The position numbers and the translations under genes were made by a program. Of a stretch of DNA of 64,000 bases, positions 14,291 through 20,934 are shown in pieces. Numbering within the stretch: position 1 is the stretch's first letter; each line of letters starts with the position of its first letter. Source of the stretch: Rudanella lutea DSM 19387 (GTDB taxonomy: Bacteria > Bacteroidota > Bacteroidia > Cytophagales > Spirosomataceae); assembly GCF_000383955.1 (NCBI RefSeq), contig NZ_KB913013.1:2014277-2078276 (forward strand). Direction: 5' to 3'. The notes beneath the pieces were generated by a model. It was not told where the DNA came from and did no database searches. It saw only the letters and a program-made list of their open reading frames with translations.

Positions 14291-14338
14291 CAAAAACCCA
14301 TTCATTTGACCTTCAAACCATTCAGACAAAAACCCATT
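14291..14338. repeat. Direct repeat CAAAAACCCATT in the dnaN/speD divergent gap
   Basis: Identical 12-mers at 14291-14302 and 14327-14338 flank a shorter variant CAAACCATTC at 14314-14323. The second copy abuts the -33 box of the speD-like promoter, so these could be binding sites for a regulator; no protein is identified. Confidence 0.45.
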
Positions 14339-14367
14339 TGTAAACGCGCCTAAAACGGATAGTTTTG
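14337..14367 (+). promoter_or_regulatory. Near-ideal promoter of the SpeD/DUF4178 operon
   Basis: TTTG (14337-14340), exactly 19 bases, then TAGTTTTG (14360-14367) matches the Bacteroidota TTTG-N19-TAnnTTTG promoter in full. Transcription would begin near 14374. The short leader contains CTGACCA (14373-14379) and its complement TGGTCAG (14395-14401) ending five bases before the ATG, so a leader hairpin could cover the ribosome-binding area. Confidence 0.7.
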
Positions 14368-14406: not shown

Positions 14407-14760
14407 ATGACTACCTACACCCCCGGCCTGCATATACTGGCCACATTTACGGCTCCACAAACGCACCTGACCGACCCCGACGGTTGCCGGGCCCTGTTCG
14501 ACGCGCTCATCGACGAGCTGGGCCTCGCCAAAGTAGGCGAAACCTACCATGCTTTCCCGAATGGCGGGTTTACGGCCGTCGTTTGCCTTACCGAATCGCA
14601 CGTATCGATTCATACCTGGCCTGAATTCGGCGTGGCCACTTTTGACGTGTTTTTGTCTAACTTTCAGCGCAATAACGAGGCCAAGGTGCGGCTGTTCTAC
14701 GCGCGTACGCTGGGCCATTTCGACGCTACCGAACAAACCCGCCACGAACTGACCCGATGA
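14407..14760 (+). CDS. S-adenosylmethionine decarboxylase-family pyruvoyl enzyme (SpeD-like)
   Basis: 117 residues, a typical class-B SpeD proenzyme length. The self-cleavage motif ESHVSIHTWPE is at 63-73, so Ser64 should become the pyruvoyl cofactor. His69 is present. At the position of the catalytic Cys (20 residues after the cleavage serine, usually in a FTCG motif) this protein reads FLSN, that is Ser84 in place of Cys. Classic members decarboxylate S-adenosylmethionine to provide aminopropyl groups for spermidine; some family members instead decarboxylate arginine or ornithine. Substrate therefore remains open. The gene leads an operon containing a spermidine synthase-like enzyme and overlaps the next gene by four bases. 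Confidence 0.85.
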   Translation: MTTYTPGLHILATFTAPQTHLTDPDGCRALFDALIDELGLAKVGETYHAFPNGGFTAVVCLTESHVSIHTWPEFGVATFDVFLSNFQRNNEAKVRLFYARTLGHFDATEQTRHELTR

Positions 14761-16070
14761 CCGACGCTCTCCCCTCCGACTCACAGCCCGCATCGGCAAC
14801 GCTTCAGTGCCCGCACTGCAAACACACCATTACGTACTATGACGTAACGGGTAGTTCATTTTATGGTTGCCCTAATTGCCAAACCTTTTTCAAATACGAA
14901 ACCGAAAGCCTGCCCCGGCGTCTGACGCAGTTCGATAATCAAACTAAGCCGGTACTGCCGGTTGGCACAGAGGGCTTTATGGAGGGGCAATTTCATCGGG
15001 TGGTGGGCTACATGCACCGAAAAGAACGGGGCAAGCCTTATAACTGGGTCGAGTACGTGCTTTTCCGGGCCGATGGCGTGTACACCCAACTGGCCGAGTA
15101 CGAAGGGCATTGGACATACATTGTACCCACCAAAGCCAAATACAACGAGTACGGCAAAGGGGGCAACGCCTACTACGTCGATACCGAAGAACGGCAATAC
15201 CGGCTCTACAACCGCTACGAACCCCAGACCCTGCTGGCCATCGGTGAGTTTGACTGGAACGTGCTCGACGACGACCGGATGCGCGTGTCGGAGTACATCA
15301 ACCCGCCCTACACCCTTGTGGCCGAAGTGGCCGCTACCCGCACCGATTGGTACAAGGGCATCTATAAAACCCGGCAGGAGATCGCCAACGCCTTTGGCCT
15401 AAGCCCCTCCGACCTCCCCAAACCACAAGGGACAGGTGCCGCCCAGCCCGCCATCAGCCCCGAAAAATGGCAGGGGGTATTATCATTTACGGGCGTAGCA
15501 CTGGTTATTTTGTTCAGCCTGCAACTTCTGCTGACGATTGTAAAACCCCGTCAGTTTGTGCTCGATACCACCTACAGCACCGAGCTCGATACCGGCGCTA
15601 CCAACGTGAGCAACGGCCTGTTCAAGCCGGTCATCTCGCCTTCGTTTAGCATCAACGGCCCGGCGGCCCTCGAAATTCGGGTGTCGGCCGACATCGACAA
15701 TCAATGGGTAGAGTTGCCGATGAGCTTAGTGAACGAGCAAACGGGCCAATCGTACGAGTTTACCAAGGTGCTGGAGTATTATCACGGCGTAGATGGGGGC
15801 GAAAGCTGGTCGGAGGGTGGGGCCGTCGACGAAGCCGAACTGTCGCGGATTCCGTCGGGGCGGTACCACCTGAACCTCTACCCTATCTCACAGGGGAAAC
15901 CAAGCGTGCGGGGCTCGCTCCGGGTGACCCAAAACCCAACGATTTTCAGTAACCTGCTGATTCTGTTGACACTCCTGCTTATTTATCCAATTTATCTCTT
16001 GTTCAAAAAGCAGATTCTGGAAAGTAACCGCTGGCAAAACAGCGACTTTGCGGATGAAGGAACCGAATAA
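14757..16070 (+). CDS. DUF4178 zinc-ribbon membrane protein
   Basis: 437 residues, starting in an ATGA overlap with the SpeD-like gene. A zinc ribbon is formed by C18-x2-C21 and C38-x2-C41. Residues ~60-220 match DUF4178 (WVEYVLFRADGVYTQLAEYEGHW and similar aromatic repeats, shown shortened). A membrane helix near 242-262 is followed by a ~140-residue extracytoplasmic domain and a second helix near 402-424. DUF4178 proteins are found next to SpeD, DUF350 and spermidine synthase-like genes in several phyla; no biochemical function is established to my knowledge. The two helices place the protein beside the membrane-embedded synthase of this operon. Confidence 0.85.
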   Translation: MTDALPSDSQPASATLQCPHCKHTITYYDVTGSSFYGCPNCQTFFKYETESLPRRLTQFDNQTKPVLPVGTEGFMEGQFHRVVGYMHRKERGKPYNWVEYVLFRADGVYTQLAEYEGHWTYIVPTKAKYNEYGKGGNAYYVDTEERQYRLYNRYEPQTLLAIGEFDWNVLDDDRMRVSEYINPPYTLVAEVAATRTDWYKGIYKTRQEIANAFGLSPSDLPKPQGTGAAQPAISPEKWQGVLSFTGVALVILFSLQLLLTIVKPRQFVLDTTYSTELDTGATNVSNGLFKPVISPSFSINGPAALEIRVSADIDNQWVELPMSLVNEQTGQSYEFTKVLEYYHGVDGGESWSEGGAVDEAELSRIPSGRYHLNLYPISQGKPSVRGSLRVTQNPTIFSNLLILLTLLLIYPIYLLFKKQILESNRWQNSDFADEGTE

Positions 16071-16084
16071 ACCCACCTACTCCC

Positions 16085-16288
16085 ATGCTCAAAAACCTTT
16101 CGACTATCAAGGTCTATGTTTTCCTGATTGCGCTTTTGCTCGGCGGATTCGCCTGGGCGGGCCTGACAGGTACCTGGCTCATCGGCGACGACCTCGACAG
16201 TGTCGAGAAACGTGACGACAAGCAGGGTTTTCACCGATCGGTGGGGCGCGGCTACCGGGGAGGTCGCAGCGGGTTTTATCATAAATAA
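16085..16288 (+). CDS. Small membrane protein with basic Gly/Arg tail
   Basis: 67 residues: a single membrane helix (VYVFLIALLLGGFAWAGLTG), an acidic patch (GDDLDSVEKRDD) and a C-terminal RGYRGGRSGFYHK tail. No family was recognised. It begins 14 bases after the DUF4178 stop, has normal codon use and keeps the operon direction, so it is probably a real component. The basic aromatic tail may contact lipid, nucleic acid or partner proteins; this is not inferable further. Confidence 0.65.
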   Translation: MLKNLSTIKVYVFLIALLLGGFAWAGLTGTWLIGDDLDSVEKRDDKQGFHRSVGRGYRGGRSGFYHK

Positions 16289-16425
16289 GGAGAAGGGAGG
16301 AAAGGGAGGAAGGAGAAAAGAGAAGCTTATTGGCAATCGCCTGTTGTTCGTTGTTCATTCTTCATTATCCATTGTTCACTGCTCGTTGTTCACTGTTCGT
16401 TGTTCGTTGATACCTGTTCATTGTT
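16287..16425. repeat. Purine tract plus TTGTTCATTG-type tandem repeat inside the operon
   Basis: Bases 16287-16328 are an almost pure purine tract of GGAGAAGGGA-type units. Bases 16341-16425 are about ten degenerate copies of TTGTTCATTG/TTGTTCGTTG. Together they form the only sizable gap in the operon. They look like the degenerate intergenic repeats seen elsewhere here, inserted between two co-directional genes; effects on the transcript are unknown. Confidence 0.6.
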
Positions 16426-16441
16426 TTAACTCTCCAATTGT

Positions 16442-16648
16442 ATGGAATACAAATACATCATTGCTTCGATTGTTTACTCGCTGGTGGGTATCGTGATTCT
16501 GGTCATTTGCTTCGTGACTATTGAAAAAATTGCCCCGGAAAACCTCTGGAAAAAGATTGTCGATGAGCAAAACGTGGCACTGGCTATTCTGGCGGCTGCG
16601 TTTATGATTGCCCTGTCGATCATTATCAGTTCGGCTATTCATGGCTGA
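16442..16648 (+). CDS. DUF350 family small membrane protein (YjfL-like)
   Basis: 68 residues with two membrane helices (ASIVYSLVGIVILVICFV and ALAILAAAFMIALSIIISS) and the hinge ENLWKKIVDEQNVALA typical of DUF350. In E. coli the relative YjfL lies beside a PspA paralogue and a glutathionylspermidine synthase-like gene, a similar polyamine/membrane setting. Longer DUF350 proteins carry several such units; this is a single one. The stop overlaps the start of the synthase gene by eight bases, indicating translational coupling. Confidence 0.85.
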   Translation: MEYKYIIASIVYSLVGIVILVICFVTIEKIAPENLWKKIVDEQNVALAILAAAFMIALSIIISSAIHG

Positions 16649-18248
16649 CGAACCCACCGACCCGTTGGCGGCCCCTGCCACCGGCACCCTGACCGACCGG
16701 AAATCGCACCGGCCTGAAGGCGAATCGCTCAATTCGTTTCAGGTTCTGCTGCTCCTGTCGGTGTTTGTGATTGCCACCTGCGGACTTATTTACGAACTCA
16801 TTGCGGGTACCCTCGCCAGTTATCTTCTGGGCGATTCGGTCACGCAGTTTTCGACCATCATCGGGGCCTATCTATTTGCTATGGGTATCGGCTCGTGGCT
16901 ATCGAAATACCTCGACGGTGATTTGCTGCGCTGGTTTATCCGAATCGAAATTCTGGTGGGCATCGTCGGCGGGTTTAGCGCCCCGCTGTTGTTTGTGCTG
17001 TTCGAATACGTGGCCTCGTTCCGGGTGGTGCTGTACGGGCTGGTGGGCCTCACGGGTATTCTGGTGGGGCTCGAAATTCCGTTGCTGATGCGGATTCTGG
17101 AGCATCAGCTTTCGTTTAAAGATCTGGTGTCGCGGGTGTTCACCGTCGATTACATTGGGGCCTTGCTGGCGTCGGTTATTTTTCCGCTGGTGCTGGTGCC
17201 GCAGCTTGGTCTTATTCGCACGGCCCTGTTTTTTGGCCTGCTCAATGTACTGGTGGCCGCTTTTGTCCTGTACAAATTCCCGCAAACGCGCCCCTACCGC
17301 ACAGCGCAGGGCGTGCTGATTGGCTTCACGATACTGGGCCTGCTCGCGGGCTTTGCCCTGGCCGAACGAGTGATGACCTACACCGAAAGTGTGGCCTTGC
17401 AGGACAAGGTGATCTATAGCCAATCAACACCGTACCAGCGCATTGTACTCACCAGCAACGCCCGCGAAATGCGCCTGTACCTCAACGGCAATCTTCAGTT
17501 CAGCTCGGCCGACGAGTACCGCTATCACGAGGCTCTGGTGCACCCGGCCATGCAGGCCAACCCGCGCGCCCGGCGGGTGCTGGTGCTGGGTGGGGGCGAC
17601 GGACTCGCCGTACGGGAGTTGCTCAAATACCCGGCTCTGCGGACCATTCGGCTGGTTGATCTGGACCCCGGCATGACGCAACTGTTCCGGCAGAACGAAC
17701 TCCTGCTGAAGCTAAATAAGCGGTCGTTGCTGTCGTCCAAGGTCGACGTGGTCAATGCCGATGCCTACACCTGGATTCGGCAGGACACCGCCCGTTACGA
17801 TGTGGTGGTGGTCGATTTCCCCGATCCCTCCAACTACTCCATTGGCAAGCTGTACAGCACCGCTTTCTACCGCGAACTCGACCGGGTACTGGCACCGGGG
17901 GGTGTCGTGGTGGTGCAATCGACCTCGCCCTACGTGGCCCGGCGGGCGTTCTGGTGCATTGCCCATACGCTGCAAGCGGTGGGCCTGCGTACCTTCCCCT
18001 ACCACGTGCACGTGCCGTCTTTTGGCGAGTGGGGCTACGTGCTGGCTGGCCGCACGACCGAGCGCACTGGCTGGCCCGAGCCCAACCGGCTGAACCTCCC
18101 CACCGGTCTGCGGTACGTAAGCCCACTCACCCTGCGCGACATGACCACCTTTGCCCCCGACATGGCCGAGGTGACGACCGAGGTCAACCGACTCAACAAT
18201 CAGGCTTTGGTGCAGTATTTTGAAGACGAATGGAGCGCCGTACCATGA
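16641..18248 (+). CDS. Membrane-embedded spermidine synthase-like aminopropyltransferase
   Basis: 535 residues from the ATG at 16641. Seven membrane helices occupy ~33-245. The C-terminal half is a spermidine-synthase fold: LNGNLQFSSADEYRYHEAL (the gate and substrate region), VLVLGGGDGLAVREL near 312-326 (binding decarboxylated AdoMet), VDLDPGM, NADAYTWI, and VVVDFPDPSNYSIGKLYS with both aspartates of the usual DxxDP motif. The enzyme should transfer an aminopropyl or related group at the membrane face. The polyamine acceptor is unknown. It sits between DUF350 and a secreted FAD oxidoreductase with overlapping junctions on both sides. Confidence 0.9.
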   Translation: MADEPTDPLAAPATGTLTDRKSHRPEGESLNSFQVLLLLSVFVIATCGLIYELIAGTLASYLLGDSVTQFSTIIGAYLFAMGIGSWLSKYLDGDLLRWFIRIEILVGIVGGFSAPLLFVLFEYVASFRVVLYGLVGLTGILVGLEIPLLMRILEHQLSFKDLVSRVFTVDYIGALLASVIFPLVLVPQLGLIRTALFFGLLNVLVAAFVLYKFPQTRPYRTAQGVLIGFTILGLLAGFALAERVMTYTESVALQDKVIYSQSTPYQRIVLTSNAREMRLYLNGNLQFSSADEYRYHEALVHPAMQANPRARRVLVLGGGDGLAVRELLKYPALRTIRLVDLDPGMTQLFRQNELLLKLNKRSLLSSKVDVVNADAYTWIRQDTARYDVVVVDFPDPSNYSIGKLYSTAFYRELDRVLAPGGVVVVQSTSPYVARRAFWCIAHTLQAVGLRTFPYHVHVPSFGEWGYVLAGRTTERTGWPEPNRLNLPTGLRYVSPLTLRDMTTFAPDMAEVTTEVNRLNNQALVQYFEDEWSAVP

Positions 18249-19888
18249 AAGCAACCCGCCGAACCTTTCTGACCCAAACCGCCCTTGGCGTAGCCGCTCT
18301 GGCCACGGCTCCGCTACTGCCGGGTTGCCGCACAGCGCAGGCCATACCCGGCCGAAACCTGGGGCCAAACCACCAGGCAGGGCACTGGTTGCGGGGGCCT
18401 TTGCCCACCCTGGCGCATACCGCCCCGGCCGAAACGCTTTCGGCAGAAGTAGTGATTGTGGGTGGGGGCATTGCCGGCCTGTCGGCACGGCGGTGGCTGG
18501 CCAAAGCTGGCATGACGGATGTACTGCTGCTCGAACTGGAAGAAAAAACGGGCGGCAACTCAACGTCGGGCCAAAACAGCGTGTCGGCCTACCCGTGGGG
18601 TGCGCATTATCTGCCCATTCCAGACATCCGCAACCGCGAACTGCTCGACTTTCTGGCGGAGGCCGGGAGCATCACCGGATACAACGAAGCCGGGCTCCCT
18701 ATCTACAACGAATACCACCTTTGTCACGACCCCGAAGAGCGCCTGTTTATCAACGGGCATTGGCAGGAGGGGCTGGTACCCGAAATTGGTGTCCCCACCC
18801 CCGACCGTGACCAGATTCGGCGGTTCTTTGCCGAGATCGAGACCCTCCGGCAAGCTGTGGGCACCGACGGCCGCGACGCCTTCGCCATTCCGCTCGACCG
18901 CTCATCGGCCGATGCCCGTTTTCGGAACCTGGATAAGCAATCATTTGCCGATTACCTAACCCAGAAAGGGTTTACCTCACCTTACCTGCGCTGGTACCTG
19001 AACTACTGCTGTCAGGACGATTACGGTATTACGCTCGATCAAACGTCTGCCTGGGCGGGGCTGCATTATTTCGCCGGGCGCAAAGGGCGGGCTGCCAACG
19101 CGCCGGGCTCGGCCGTGATGACCTGGCCCGAAGGCAACGCGTTTCTGGCCGACCGGTTGCGGCAACAGGCCGAAACACCCACCCGCACCAACACCCTGGT
19201 TTTTTCGCTCGAACAAACCGAAACGGGGGTTCGGGTGCTGGCCCGCGACCTTGGCCGCAACCAAACCGTAGCCATCAACGCTCAAACGGCTATTTTGGCT
19301 ACGCCCGCATTCATCGCCCGTCGACTGCTGGGCAAAGCGGCACCGGCTGCCGCACCCCAACCGTTGGCCCATACGCCCTGGGTGGTTGCCAACCTCACCG
19401 TCGATGCGTTGCCGCAGGGGCCTGGTGTACCCCTCTGCTGGGACAACGTGGTGTACGGCAACGATTCGGTCGGTTATATTTCGGCCAACCACCAGCACCT
19501 GCACGATAGCCCGCAGCGGGTAATCACGTACTACAAGCCCCTTACGAGTCATACGCCCACCCAGGTTGCCAACGCCCGACAGCGCGCCTACGGCACCACC
19601 CGCGACCAATGGATCACCGAAATTCTGACCGAACTCGAAACCGCTCACCCCAGCATTAGTCAGCACGTGCAGGAAATCGATATTTGGGTGTGGGGTCACG
19701 GCATGGCCGCCCCGTCGGTGGGGGCACTCTGGCATAGTGATCGTACGGCGCAACACCAATCCGTTGGCCACTCTATTTACGTTGCCCACACCGACTACAG
19801 TGGTATATCCATTTTTGAGGAAGCCTTTTACGGGGGTATCCGGGCCGCCGAAGCCCTGCTGGCTAACCGACAACCGGGTTCGCTTTAA
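18245..19888 (+). CDS. Tat-exported FAD-dependent oxidoreductase lipoprotein (amine oxidase-like)
   Basis: The ATG at 18245 overlaps the synthase stop (ATGA) and gives 547 residues; an ATG at 18230 is also in frame. The signal has the twin-arginine motif TRRTFL (R5, R6) and a lipobox LPGC with Cys 28, so a folded, cofactor-loaded enzyme should be exported and lipid-anchored. The FAD dinucleotide motif VVIVGGGIAGLSA lies near 69-80, and the C-terminal SGISIFEEAFYGGIRAA closes the FAD site as in amine oxidase/phytoene desaturase-type flavoproteins. The substrate is unknown; linkage to a polyamine synthase suggests an amine, which is inference. Confidence 0.88.
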   Translation: MKATRRTFLTQTALGVAALATAPLLPGCRTAQAIPGRNLGPNHQAGHWLRGPLPTLAHTAPAETLSAEVVIVGGGIAGLSARRWLAKAGMTDVLLLELEEKTGGNSTSGQNSVSAYPWGAHYLPIPDIRNRELLDFLAEAGSITGYNEAGLPIYNEYHLCHDPEERLFINGHWQEGLVPEIGVPTPDRDQIRRFFAEIETLRQAVGTDGRDAFAIPLDRSSADARFRNLDKQSFADYLTQKGFTSPYLRWYLNYCCQDDYGITLDQTSAWAGLHYFAGRKGRAANAPGSAVMTWPEGNAFLADRLRQQAETPTRTNTLVFSLEQTETGVRVLARDLGRNQTVAINAQTAILATPAFIARRLLGKAAPAAAPQPLAHTPWVVANLTVDALPQGPGVPLCWDNVVYGNDSVGYISANHQHLHDSPQRVITYYKPLTSHTPTQVANARQRAYGTTRDQWITEILTELETAHPSISQHVQEIDIWVWGHGMAAPSVGALWHSDRTAQHQSVGHSIYVAHTDYSGISIFEEAFYGGIRAAEALLANRQPGSL

Positions 19889-19899
19889 CCGCTACCGCC

Positions 19900-20934
19900 G
19901 TGACACAACCCTGGATCAAGTCGCCCCGATTCGACGGCCTGTTTATTCTGCTGCCCCCATTTGCGGCATTGGCAGTGGTGCTGTTGTTGCCCGAACGCTT
20001 CCGCAGTACCGATGAGATGCCCGTGATTGCCTGGGTGAGTCTGGTACTGCTGATCGACGTGGCTCATGTGTACAGTACCCTCTTTCGGACGTACTTTGAC
20101 CCGGCCCGGTTTCGGCCCCGGCGCCGGTTATTTCTAACCATTCCGCTGCTGTGCTACGCCGTGGGCGTTGGGTTGTACAGCCTCGATGCCGGGTGGTTCT
20201 GGCGCGTGTTGGCGTATCTGGCGGTGTTTCATTTTGTGCGTCAGCAGTACGGGTTTCTACGACTCTATGCCCGCACCGAAACCGCGCCCCGCCCCTATCG
20301 CCAACTCGATACCGTAGTCATTTACACGGCCACGCTCTACCCGCTGCTTTGGTGGCACCTGACGCCCGGCCGCCATTTCAATTGGTTTGTCGATGGTGAT
20401 TTCTGGCAGACGGCATCCCCACAAACGGGCATTCGCACGGTTCTGACGGCACTTTATGTCGGGTTGCTGCTATTGTATGTGGCCAAAGAGGTACGGCTGT
20501 ACCAGACCCGGCGGTGGATCAATTGGCCCCGCAATCTGCTGGTGGCGGGCACAGTGCTATCGTGGTACGCCGGTATTGTACTCTTCAATGGCGATGTGGC
20601 CTTTACCATGCTCAACGTAGTGGCCCACGGCATCCCGTACATCGCCCTGATTTGGGCTACCTCCCGGCCCAGCCGGGGCGTGTGGGCCTCGCTGCTGCGT
20701 TCGTACGGAATCGTATTTTTTCTGAGCGTACTGGTTCTGTTGGCCTATCTGGAAGAAGGCCTTTGGGATGGGCTTGTCTGGCACGAACACCCTTCGGTAT
20801 TCGGTTTGTTTGGGCAACTCCCTCCCGTTCAGACCGATGTCTGGCTTGCCTGGCTGGTGCCTCTGCTGTCGCTCCCCCAATCGACCCACTACGTACTCGA
20901 CGGCTTTATCTGGCGCAACCGACCCGGAGGCTGA
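19900..20934 (+). CDS. Polytopic membrane protein with conserved-looking histidines
   Basis: 344 residues starting at a GTG, 11 bases after the oxidoreductase stop. About eight membrane helices are visible. Histidines sit at several helix ends: DVAHVYSTLFRTYFDP, AVFHFVRQQYGFLRLY, LWWHLTPGRHF, VVAHGIPYIALIW and STHYVLDGFIWR. This spacing recalls membrane metalloenzymes such as the Brp/Blh-type or di-iron proteins, but no family was recognised with certainty. It ends the operon and is followed by a palindromic repeat. A membrane redox or oxygenase role is possible but not shown. Confidence 0.75.
   Translation: MTQPWIKSPRFDGLFILLPPFAALAVVLLLPERFRSTDEMPVIAWVSLVLLIDVAHVYSTLFRTYFDPARFRPRRRLFLTIPLLCYAVGVGLYSLDAGWFWRVLAYLAVFHFVRQQYGFLRLYARTETAPRPYRQLDTVVIYTATLYPLLWWHLTPGRHFNWFVDGDFWQTASPQTGIRTVLTALYVGLLLLYVAKEVRLYQTRRWINWPRNLLVAGTVLSWYAGIVLFNGDVAFTMLNVVAHGIPYIALIWATSRPSRGVWASLLRSYGIVFFLSVLVLLAYLEEGLWDGLVWHEHPSVFGLFGQLPPVQTDVWLAWLVPLLSLPQSTHYVLDGFIWRNRPGG

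Follow-up and report, generated by a model that had tools for sequence, protein, structure and literature searches.

Introduction

The core of the system described here, a spermidine-synthase fusion accompanied by DUF350 and DUF4178, is already known in print. In their main text, Ravi et al. 2024 (PMC11237479) describe an operon in which a seven-transmembrane (7TM) synthase is joined by DUF350, DUF4178 and a lipoprotein, and for which they propose a role in monitoring polyamines or the aminopropylation of other substrates. A related run of seven plus-strand genes occupies positions 14407-20934 of a 64,000-nucleotide stretch of Rudanella lutea DSM 19387 (contig NZ_KB913013.1, positions 2,014,277 to 2,078,276; henceforth the window). 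With the operon as that main text presents it, the locus shares the 7TM-spermidine-synthase fusion, DUF4178, DUF350 (half-length here) and a small exported protein. It differs in that a 67-residue peptide replaces their Ctha_1186 lipoprotein, and in the addition of SpeD, a flavin adenine dinucleotide (FAD) protein and a membrane protein with four invariant histidines. The terms 'SpeD', 'flavin', 'amine oxid' and 'C-terminal lysine' are absent from the main text (PMC11237479). By position, no Ctha_1186-type lipoprotein was found in the window, the place between DUF4178 and DUF350 being taken by the peptide (no Ctha_1186 model was used), and none of the seven genes forms a CesT/Tir-PspA dyad, the flanking open reading frames (ORFs) having been read by eye alone.

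Li et al. 2019 (Biochem J) reportedly described polyamine-independent clusters which, like ours, combine an S-adenosylmethionine (AdoMet) decarboxylase, an MFS-SpdSyn fusion and DUF350, and which are said to use an acceptor other than putrescine. Such fusions reportedly fail to complement a speE deletion, with spermidine absent. That work is not known to name an acceptor, a Lys-tailed carrier or a flavoprotein.

A second parallel comes from E. coli, in which YgiC and YjfC, annotated in RefSeq as peptide-spermidine ligases, adjoin the DUF1190 proteins YgiB and YjfM; Pederick et al. 2023 is said, by its title, to be associated with these ligase systems. The yjf cluster additionally holds DUF350 and PspA. 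Both YgiB and YjfM end in GG. A search of 39 genomes gave 42 DUF1190 matches, of which the 30 that were returned as loci and read (L258-L287) have this end in 27 cases (the others being GS, GS and GT), many behind a GGFG-containing tail rich in Ser, Gly and Arg. What these systems have in common with the present locus is DUF350 (together with PspA in the yjf cluster), a partner whose end is fixed and whose tail is rich in Gly, Ser and Arg, and polyamine chemistry. Their enzyme, however, is an ATP-grasp-type ligase using a carboxylate and a GG-ended partner, whereas here an aminopropyltransferase accompanies a Lys-ended partner, whose terminus is HK rather than GG; domain searches found no ATP-grasp-type ligase domain in the seven proteins. 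The GG end of DUF1190 may be the site of ligation. A ligase needing a carboxylate is paired with a Gly-Gly end, and a transferase needing an amine with a Lys end. Protein lysines bearing aminopropyl units are known from diatom silaffins (PMC3820600), which differ in being eukaryotic, in using internal lysines and in their role in silica formation, and to which we claim no sequence relation.

Gene content of the locus

ORF reading and domain searches confirmed all seven plus-strand genes of the initial annotation, overlaps included, with refined starts for SpdSyn (ATG 16641) and the FAD protein (ATG 18245):

14337..14367, plus strand: candidate Bacteroidota-type promoter, TTTG-N19-TAGTTTTG; consensus match, weak alone
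14407..14760, plus strand: SpeD, AdoMet decarboxylase-like, 117 aa; domain match, ESHVSIHTWPE, Ser in DVFLSN
14757..16070, plus strand: DUF4178 protein, 437 aa; hydrophobic segments at 244-262 and 396-414, no Lys tail here
16085..16288, plus strand: 67-aa peptide, proposed carrier and substrate; one hydrophobic segment, end GFYHK
16442..16648, plus strand: half-length DUF350 protein, 68 aa; two hydrophobic segments
16641..18248, plus strand: about seven transmembrane (TM) helices and an aminopropyltransferase (spermidine-synthase fold) domain, 535 aa; domain predicted outside from charge counts
18245..19888, plus strand: FAD protein, amine-oxidase superfamily; N-terminus with RRTFLT, resembling a twin-arginine translocation (Tat) signal, and lipobox-like LPGC, motifs read by eye
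19900..20934, plus strand: polytopic membrane protein (the last gene); His 56, 111, 243 and 330 invariant in 33 sequences

Overlaps amount to 4 nt (SpeD/DUF4178), 8 nt (DUF350/SpdSyn) and 4 nt (SpdSyn/FAD protein), and gaps to 14 nt (DUF4178 to peptide), 153 nt (peptide to DUF350) and 11 nt (FAD protein to last gene).

Lysine-ended carriers beside the synthase

The initial annotation listed the 67-residue peptide and made no use of it. The lysine at its C-terminus recommends it as a concrete candidate for the substrate. Domain searches returned no family match for the peptide, and its counterparts were sought at 49 loci obtained by scanning named genomes for the last protein. An HK-ended ORF lies between DUF4178 and DUF350 in all 39 of these loci that have both genes, as it does in the window. 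Among small ORFs in all frames of the same loci, HK ends number 39 in 4918, the peptides included. The HK-ended gap ORFs measure 45-111 aa from their longest start; a peptide hidden Markov model (HMM) matched in 32 of the 49 loci, and distant peptides were located by position. When 16 diverse peptides, chosen among the HK-ended ones, were compared, nothing else was invariant and one Gly was nearly so. A selection blind to lysine, which took the most hydrophobic gap ORF, gave a terminal K in 32/37 and 28/31 loci of two sets that possibly share species. Seven of the eight exceptions are overlapping frames or missed ORFs at loci where the HK peptide was listed, and in the eighth (L205) DUF4178 itself ends in GHK.

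Elsewhere the protein with the terminal lysine is a different one. The loci compared were drawn from the window's phylum, from 44 of 398 genomes in the phylum of Asticcacaulis (Pseudomonadota), from 11 of 240 in that of the Verrucomicrobia locus, from seven plasmids, and from six genomes in which last-gene loci had been found. In other clades the exported or membrane protein ending in Lys is a small peptide (GGGPRYGK, RGGGLRGGK), a lipoprotein-like protein (SRSRSGGFGK, TSRSFRRGK) or DUF4178 itself, with its tail following a C-terminal hydrophobic segment (YTSGGSHK, SGSHK, SSRGFGK). The residue before the lysine varies between H, G, V and I, and the tails have a high content of Gly, Ser and Arg, a feature for which the rule selected. 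A Lys-ended carrier was picked in 85 of 99 synthase loci (one pick, L206, is unconvincing) by a rule that was shaped after examples and requires a hydrophobic segment, a count without its own control, for which opposite-strand, near/far and lysine-blind counts serve. With the rule fixed, Lys-tailed carriers were found on the same strand in 76 of 82 synthase clusters and on the opposite strand in 4 of 82. With a simple greedy caller, GK- or HK-ended ORFs made up 47/618 near the synthase and 13/1121 far from it (p 8.6e-12), and four of the 13 far ones (L201, L205, L211, L212) are themselves carrier-like.

On a synthase tree, about 8 changes in the kind of carrier were counted (the labels being rough), against two in the penultimate His and 6 in the presence of a nearby flavoprotein. 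The 82 rows of this tree were all chosen for a Lys-ended carrier: the 14 carrier-less loci were left out, as were L206 (for its tail) and L222 and L224, in which the synthase match falls in two pieces although the ORFs are continuous. Carrier kind was assigned by hand for L147, L177 and L178 (small) and for L157 and L167 (DUF4178, both passing the Pfam cut-off), and otherwise roughly, by length and HMM. Conservation of the end through changes of carrier is the pattern one would expect of a modification site. A Lys-ended carrier beside the synthase looks new: our literature search turned up no paper naming one, most subscription papers being beyond its reach.

An independent link between the flavoprotein and the penultimate His was also tested and is not supported, the His differing in about one of 6 independent pairs.

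The membrane-fused synthase and SpeD

The synthase matches the NCBIfam polyamine aminopropyltransferase model NF002956 at 671.8 bits (cut-off 472), and its catalytic domain matches polyamine and thermospermine synthases both in sequence and in predicted fold, these being the nearest solved folds. The domain keeps the acidic and YHE motifs of these enzymes (D..DP and Q....DE.YHE), and by fold and motifs the protein resembles the SpeE family. In the predicted model about seven TM helices precede this domain. Over 24 sequences, mean Lys+Arg counts were 2.04, 3.96 and 3.00 in loops 2-3, 4-5 and 6-7, against 0, 1.08, 1.04 and 1.42 in loops 1-2, 3-4 and 5-6 and the stretch after TM7. By these counts the first three loops lie inside and the others outside, and the synthase domain after TM7 is therefore predicted to lie outside.

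SpeD was recognised by an AdoMet_dc match (9.9e-21). At the DVFxCG position, where the Cys is the catalytic residue, 41 of 82 SpeD sequences have Cys and 33 have Ser; the window's SpeD has Ser. The place of SpeD within the cluster varies between loci, and in some (L081, L082) it comes last. DUF4178 was matched at 2.9e-8, with a zinc-ribbon-like N-terminus scoring below the Pfam cut-off, and DUF350 at 1.2e-12 over just positions 6-66 of 133, which corresponds to a half-length version with two TM segments.

On a haloarchaeal plasmid (L183, 3424-7363), a spermidine-synthase fusion adjoins DUF2617 and two proteins with signal-like starts, both of which end in WKVSPRI, a common terminus of another type.

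The flavoprotein and the four-histidine protein

The FAD protein falls within the amine-oxidase superfamily by similarity (Amino_oxidase, 2.1e-9) and has an FAD-binding motif; among the PDB matches listed, most span the FAD-binding part alone. An R-R/K-x-hydrophobic motif precedes the FAD motif in 69 of 75 flavoproteins, and a lipobox-like motif is present in 26 of the 75. For the last protein, two domain matches were obtained, both below cut-off, and there was no PDB sequence match, no Foldseek match at E <= 0.001 and no PHROG match.

The initial annotation expected both genes to travel with the rest of the cluster, which they do in related and unrelated genomes alike. Within about 10 kb of the last gene, the 49 loci contain the flavoprotein in 42 cases, the synthase in 40, DUF350 in 42, DUF4178 in 39 and SpeD in 36. 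The loci are labelled as Bacteroidota genera, Verrucomicrobia (2), Cyanobacteria or Obscuribacterales (2), Asticcacaulis (2), Nitrosomonadales and, in five cases, Myxococcales, Archangium or delta-proteobacterium. DUF4178 is followed by the peptide, DUF350, the synthase, the flavoprotein and the last gene, in this order, in loci labelled Bacteroidota, Verrucomicrobia, Cyanobacteria/Obscuribacterales and Asticcacaulis, and because this order recurs across phyla the cluster is more than chance. Several of the loci from other phyla are longer, the peptide being preceded by two DUF4178 proteins and an SPFH/Band-7 protein; the latter was confirmed by Pfam match in L079 and L082, and L061 and L073 have look-alike ORFs. 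Nine last-gene loci have no linked synthase. Six of these were traced (L070, L074 and L087 were left out), and all six genomes encode a synthase elsewhere, close in sequence in five and more distant in one (L090).

That the flavoenzyme and the last gene may complete a pathway, as initially annotated, is supported in part, through their co-occurrence, but the distribution of the synthase restricts both. In the window's phylum, 29 of 395 genomes have a synthase at E <= 1e-40. The flavoprotein lies near 15 of the 17 closest (E < 1e-200) and the last gene near 11, with neither near any of the other 12; on the synthase tree, all 31 rows with a flavoprotein fall within one clade of 37 rows. The flavoprotein thus characterises a single clade, in part of which the last gene occurs as an accessory. 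A search without a positive control did not find the last gene anywhere in 27 synthase-bearing genomes that have no nearby copy, and G390 holds a broken fragment of it and no synthase.

Remote relatives of the four-histidine protein (L104-L114; frames of about 380-450 aa, E 1e-11 to 1e-20) occur in 11 genomes of the phylum that have no synthase match, and the surroundings of four such relatives (L173-L176) contain none of the cluster. A relative of the flavoprotein with about 26 % identity stands unlinked in G019 (L042, 8054-9649), the synthase locus of which (L040) has no flavoprotein.

A proposed mechanism and its alternatives

We propose, giving it an even chance, that the operon builds an aminopropylated C-terminal lysine on the outward side of the cytoplasmic membrane. 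Decarboxylated AdoMet would come from SpeD. From it the membrane-fused aminopropyltransferase, with a catalytic domain predicted to face outward, would place an aminopropyl group on a small carrier that is exported or anchored in the membrane, the site being the side chain of its C-terminal lysine; in the window this carrier would be the 67-residue peptide ending in YHK. Conservation and chemistry point to lysine as the acceptor: its side chain, -(CH2)4-NH2, resembles putrescine, and its aminopropylation would hence leave the protein with a spermidine-like tail. DUF4178 and DUF350 may constitute a membrane assembly, and the 7TM part is a candidate, by inference alone, for carrying decarboxylated AdoMet outward. 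In one clade the Tat-exported flavoprotein would act on the tail afterwards, perhaps oxidising it, and in part of that clade the four-histidine membrane protein would do so too. Given the predicted outward topology, tails that follow hydrophobic segments and twin-Arg-like signals, the synthase domain, the lysine tail and the flavoprotein would meet on the same side. The annotated scheme of aminopropylation at the membrane followed by a step outside fits the Tat-like signals and the charge-based topology, but we reread its acceptor as the peptide's C-terminal lysine rather than a free polyamine or lipid.

Such a carrier is a concrete acceptor candidate that can be tested by mass spectrometry. 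If the proposal is true, it amounts to a new bacterial protein modification, explains AdoMet decarboxylases apart from polyamine synthesis, and links the system to peptide-spermidine ligases and phage shock protein (PSP) membrane-stress operons; MFS-SpdSyn fusions are present in 44 of the 398 sampled genomes of the Asticcacaulis phylum and 29 of the 395 of the window's. More tentatively, with the chances falling a little short of even, several phyla may share an extracytoplasmic aminopropylation of C-terminal lysines yielding protein-borne spermidine. This would be the amine-side twin of GG ligation, with two unrelated enzymes producing polyamine-tipped proteins on the same DUF350-linked machinery, and with an exported flavoenzyme oxidising the tip in one clade.

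Several observations, besides the manner in which the carrier rule was shaped, weigh against our proposal. Firstly, the predicted topology is based on charge counts plus one predicted model, and decarboxylated AdoMet, a product of the cytosol, would have to be transported to an active site that faces outward. Secondly, Ser in place of Cys may mean lower activity of this clade's SpeD. Thirdly, the rule finds no carrier in 14 of the 99 synthase loci. In ten of these the region has no DUF350 or DUF4178 match, L251 is a 4-kb contig, and an HGGK-ended peptide in L252 failed the hydrophobicity limit; no carrier was found in L038 and L039, which are true exceptions so far. Fourthly, among ten DUF4178-type carriers, seven have one predicted TM segment and one has three; the remaining two, L209 and L214, would with two such segments keep their tails inside. 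Finally, the association of the FAD protein with HK ends (29/4/6/46) stems from one clade and not from independent events, and the unlinked last-gene orphans L078 and L088-L090 indicate that this gene is not bound by position to the operon.

Of the alternatives, the one that survives best, though we think it unlikely, is that the synthase aminopropylates a small molecule or membrane lipid, such as the phosphatidylethanolamine head group, that the flavoprotein oxidises the product, and that the Lys-tailed protein acts as a subunit, chaperone or sensor, with a tail for binding the enzyme or the lipid. The 7TM domain does adjoin the active site, and DUF350, DUF4178, SPFH/Band-7 and PSP partners all point to membranes, yet Lys-ended carriers of differing kinds beside the synthase, and GG ends beside carboxylate-using ligases, are left unexplained by it alone. 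We regard it as rather improbable that the tail is an unmodified recognition signal, for assembly, retention or metal binding, with the enzyme acting elsewhere. While His-Lys ends could bind metal and Gly, Ser and Arg abound in the tails (for which the rule selected), the lysine is the common element behind a varying residue, and the same cluster has an enzyme of a family that adds aminopropyl groups to amines. Ordinary synthesis of spermidine or thermospermine by SpeD and the synthase agrees with the NCBIfam assignment and the nearest solved folds but is very improbable, since the genome already encodes the polyamine-synthesis enzyme NspC (514 bits, cut-off 409), membrane partners and an exported flavoprotein would be superfluous, and such fusions are said, in the work of Li et al. 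cited above, not to complement a speE deletion, with spermidine absent. No second SpeE was found in the genome, the sole other match scoring 24 bits.

Promoter and host genome

The initial annotation had the seven genes share one near-ideal promoter. A match to the Bacteroidota-type consensus TTTG-N19-TAnnTTTG does sit 39 bp ahead of the SpeD start, but the motif is not significant by itself: 2 matches occur in the window, against an expected 0.98, and 26 of 100 shuffles reach at least 2. The argument from the promoter alone was dropped.

The host genome is 99.83 % complete. Among named relatives Rudanella paleaurantiibacter is the closest, with a last protein 94 % identical. The cluster is patchy within the genus, as two of three other same-genus genomes are without it: neither the synthase, the flavoprotein nor the last gene was found in G002 (96 % complete) or G003 (71 %), save for weak synthase-like matches (E 3e-5 and 2e-6). 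In the near twin G001 (L035, 12166-14475), a divergent 769-aa gene, absent from the window, stands between dnaN and speD. Low-complexity repeats resembling TTCATTGTTCA were seen by eye in the 153 bp that separate the peptide from DUF350 (16289-16441).

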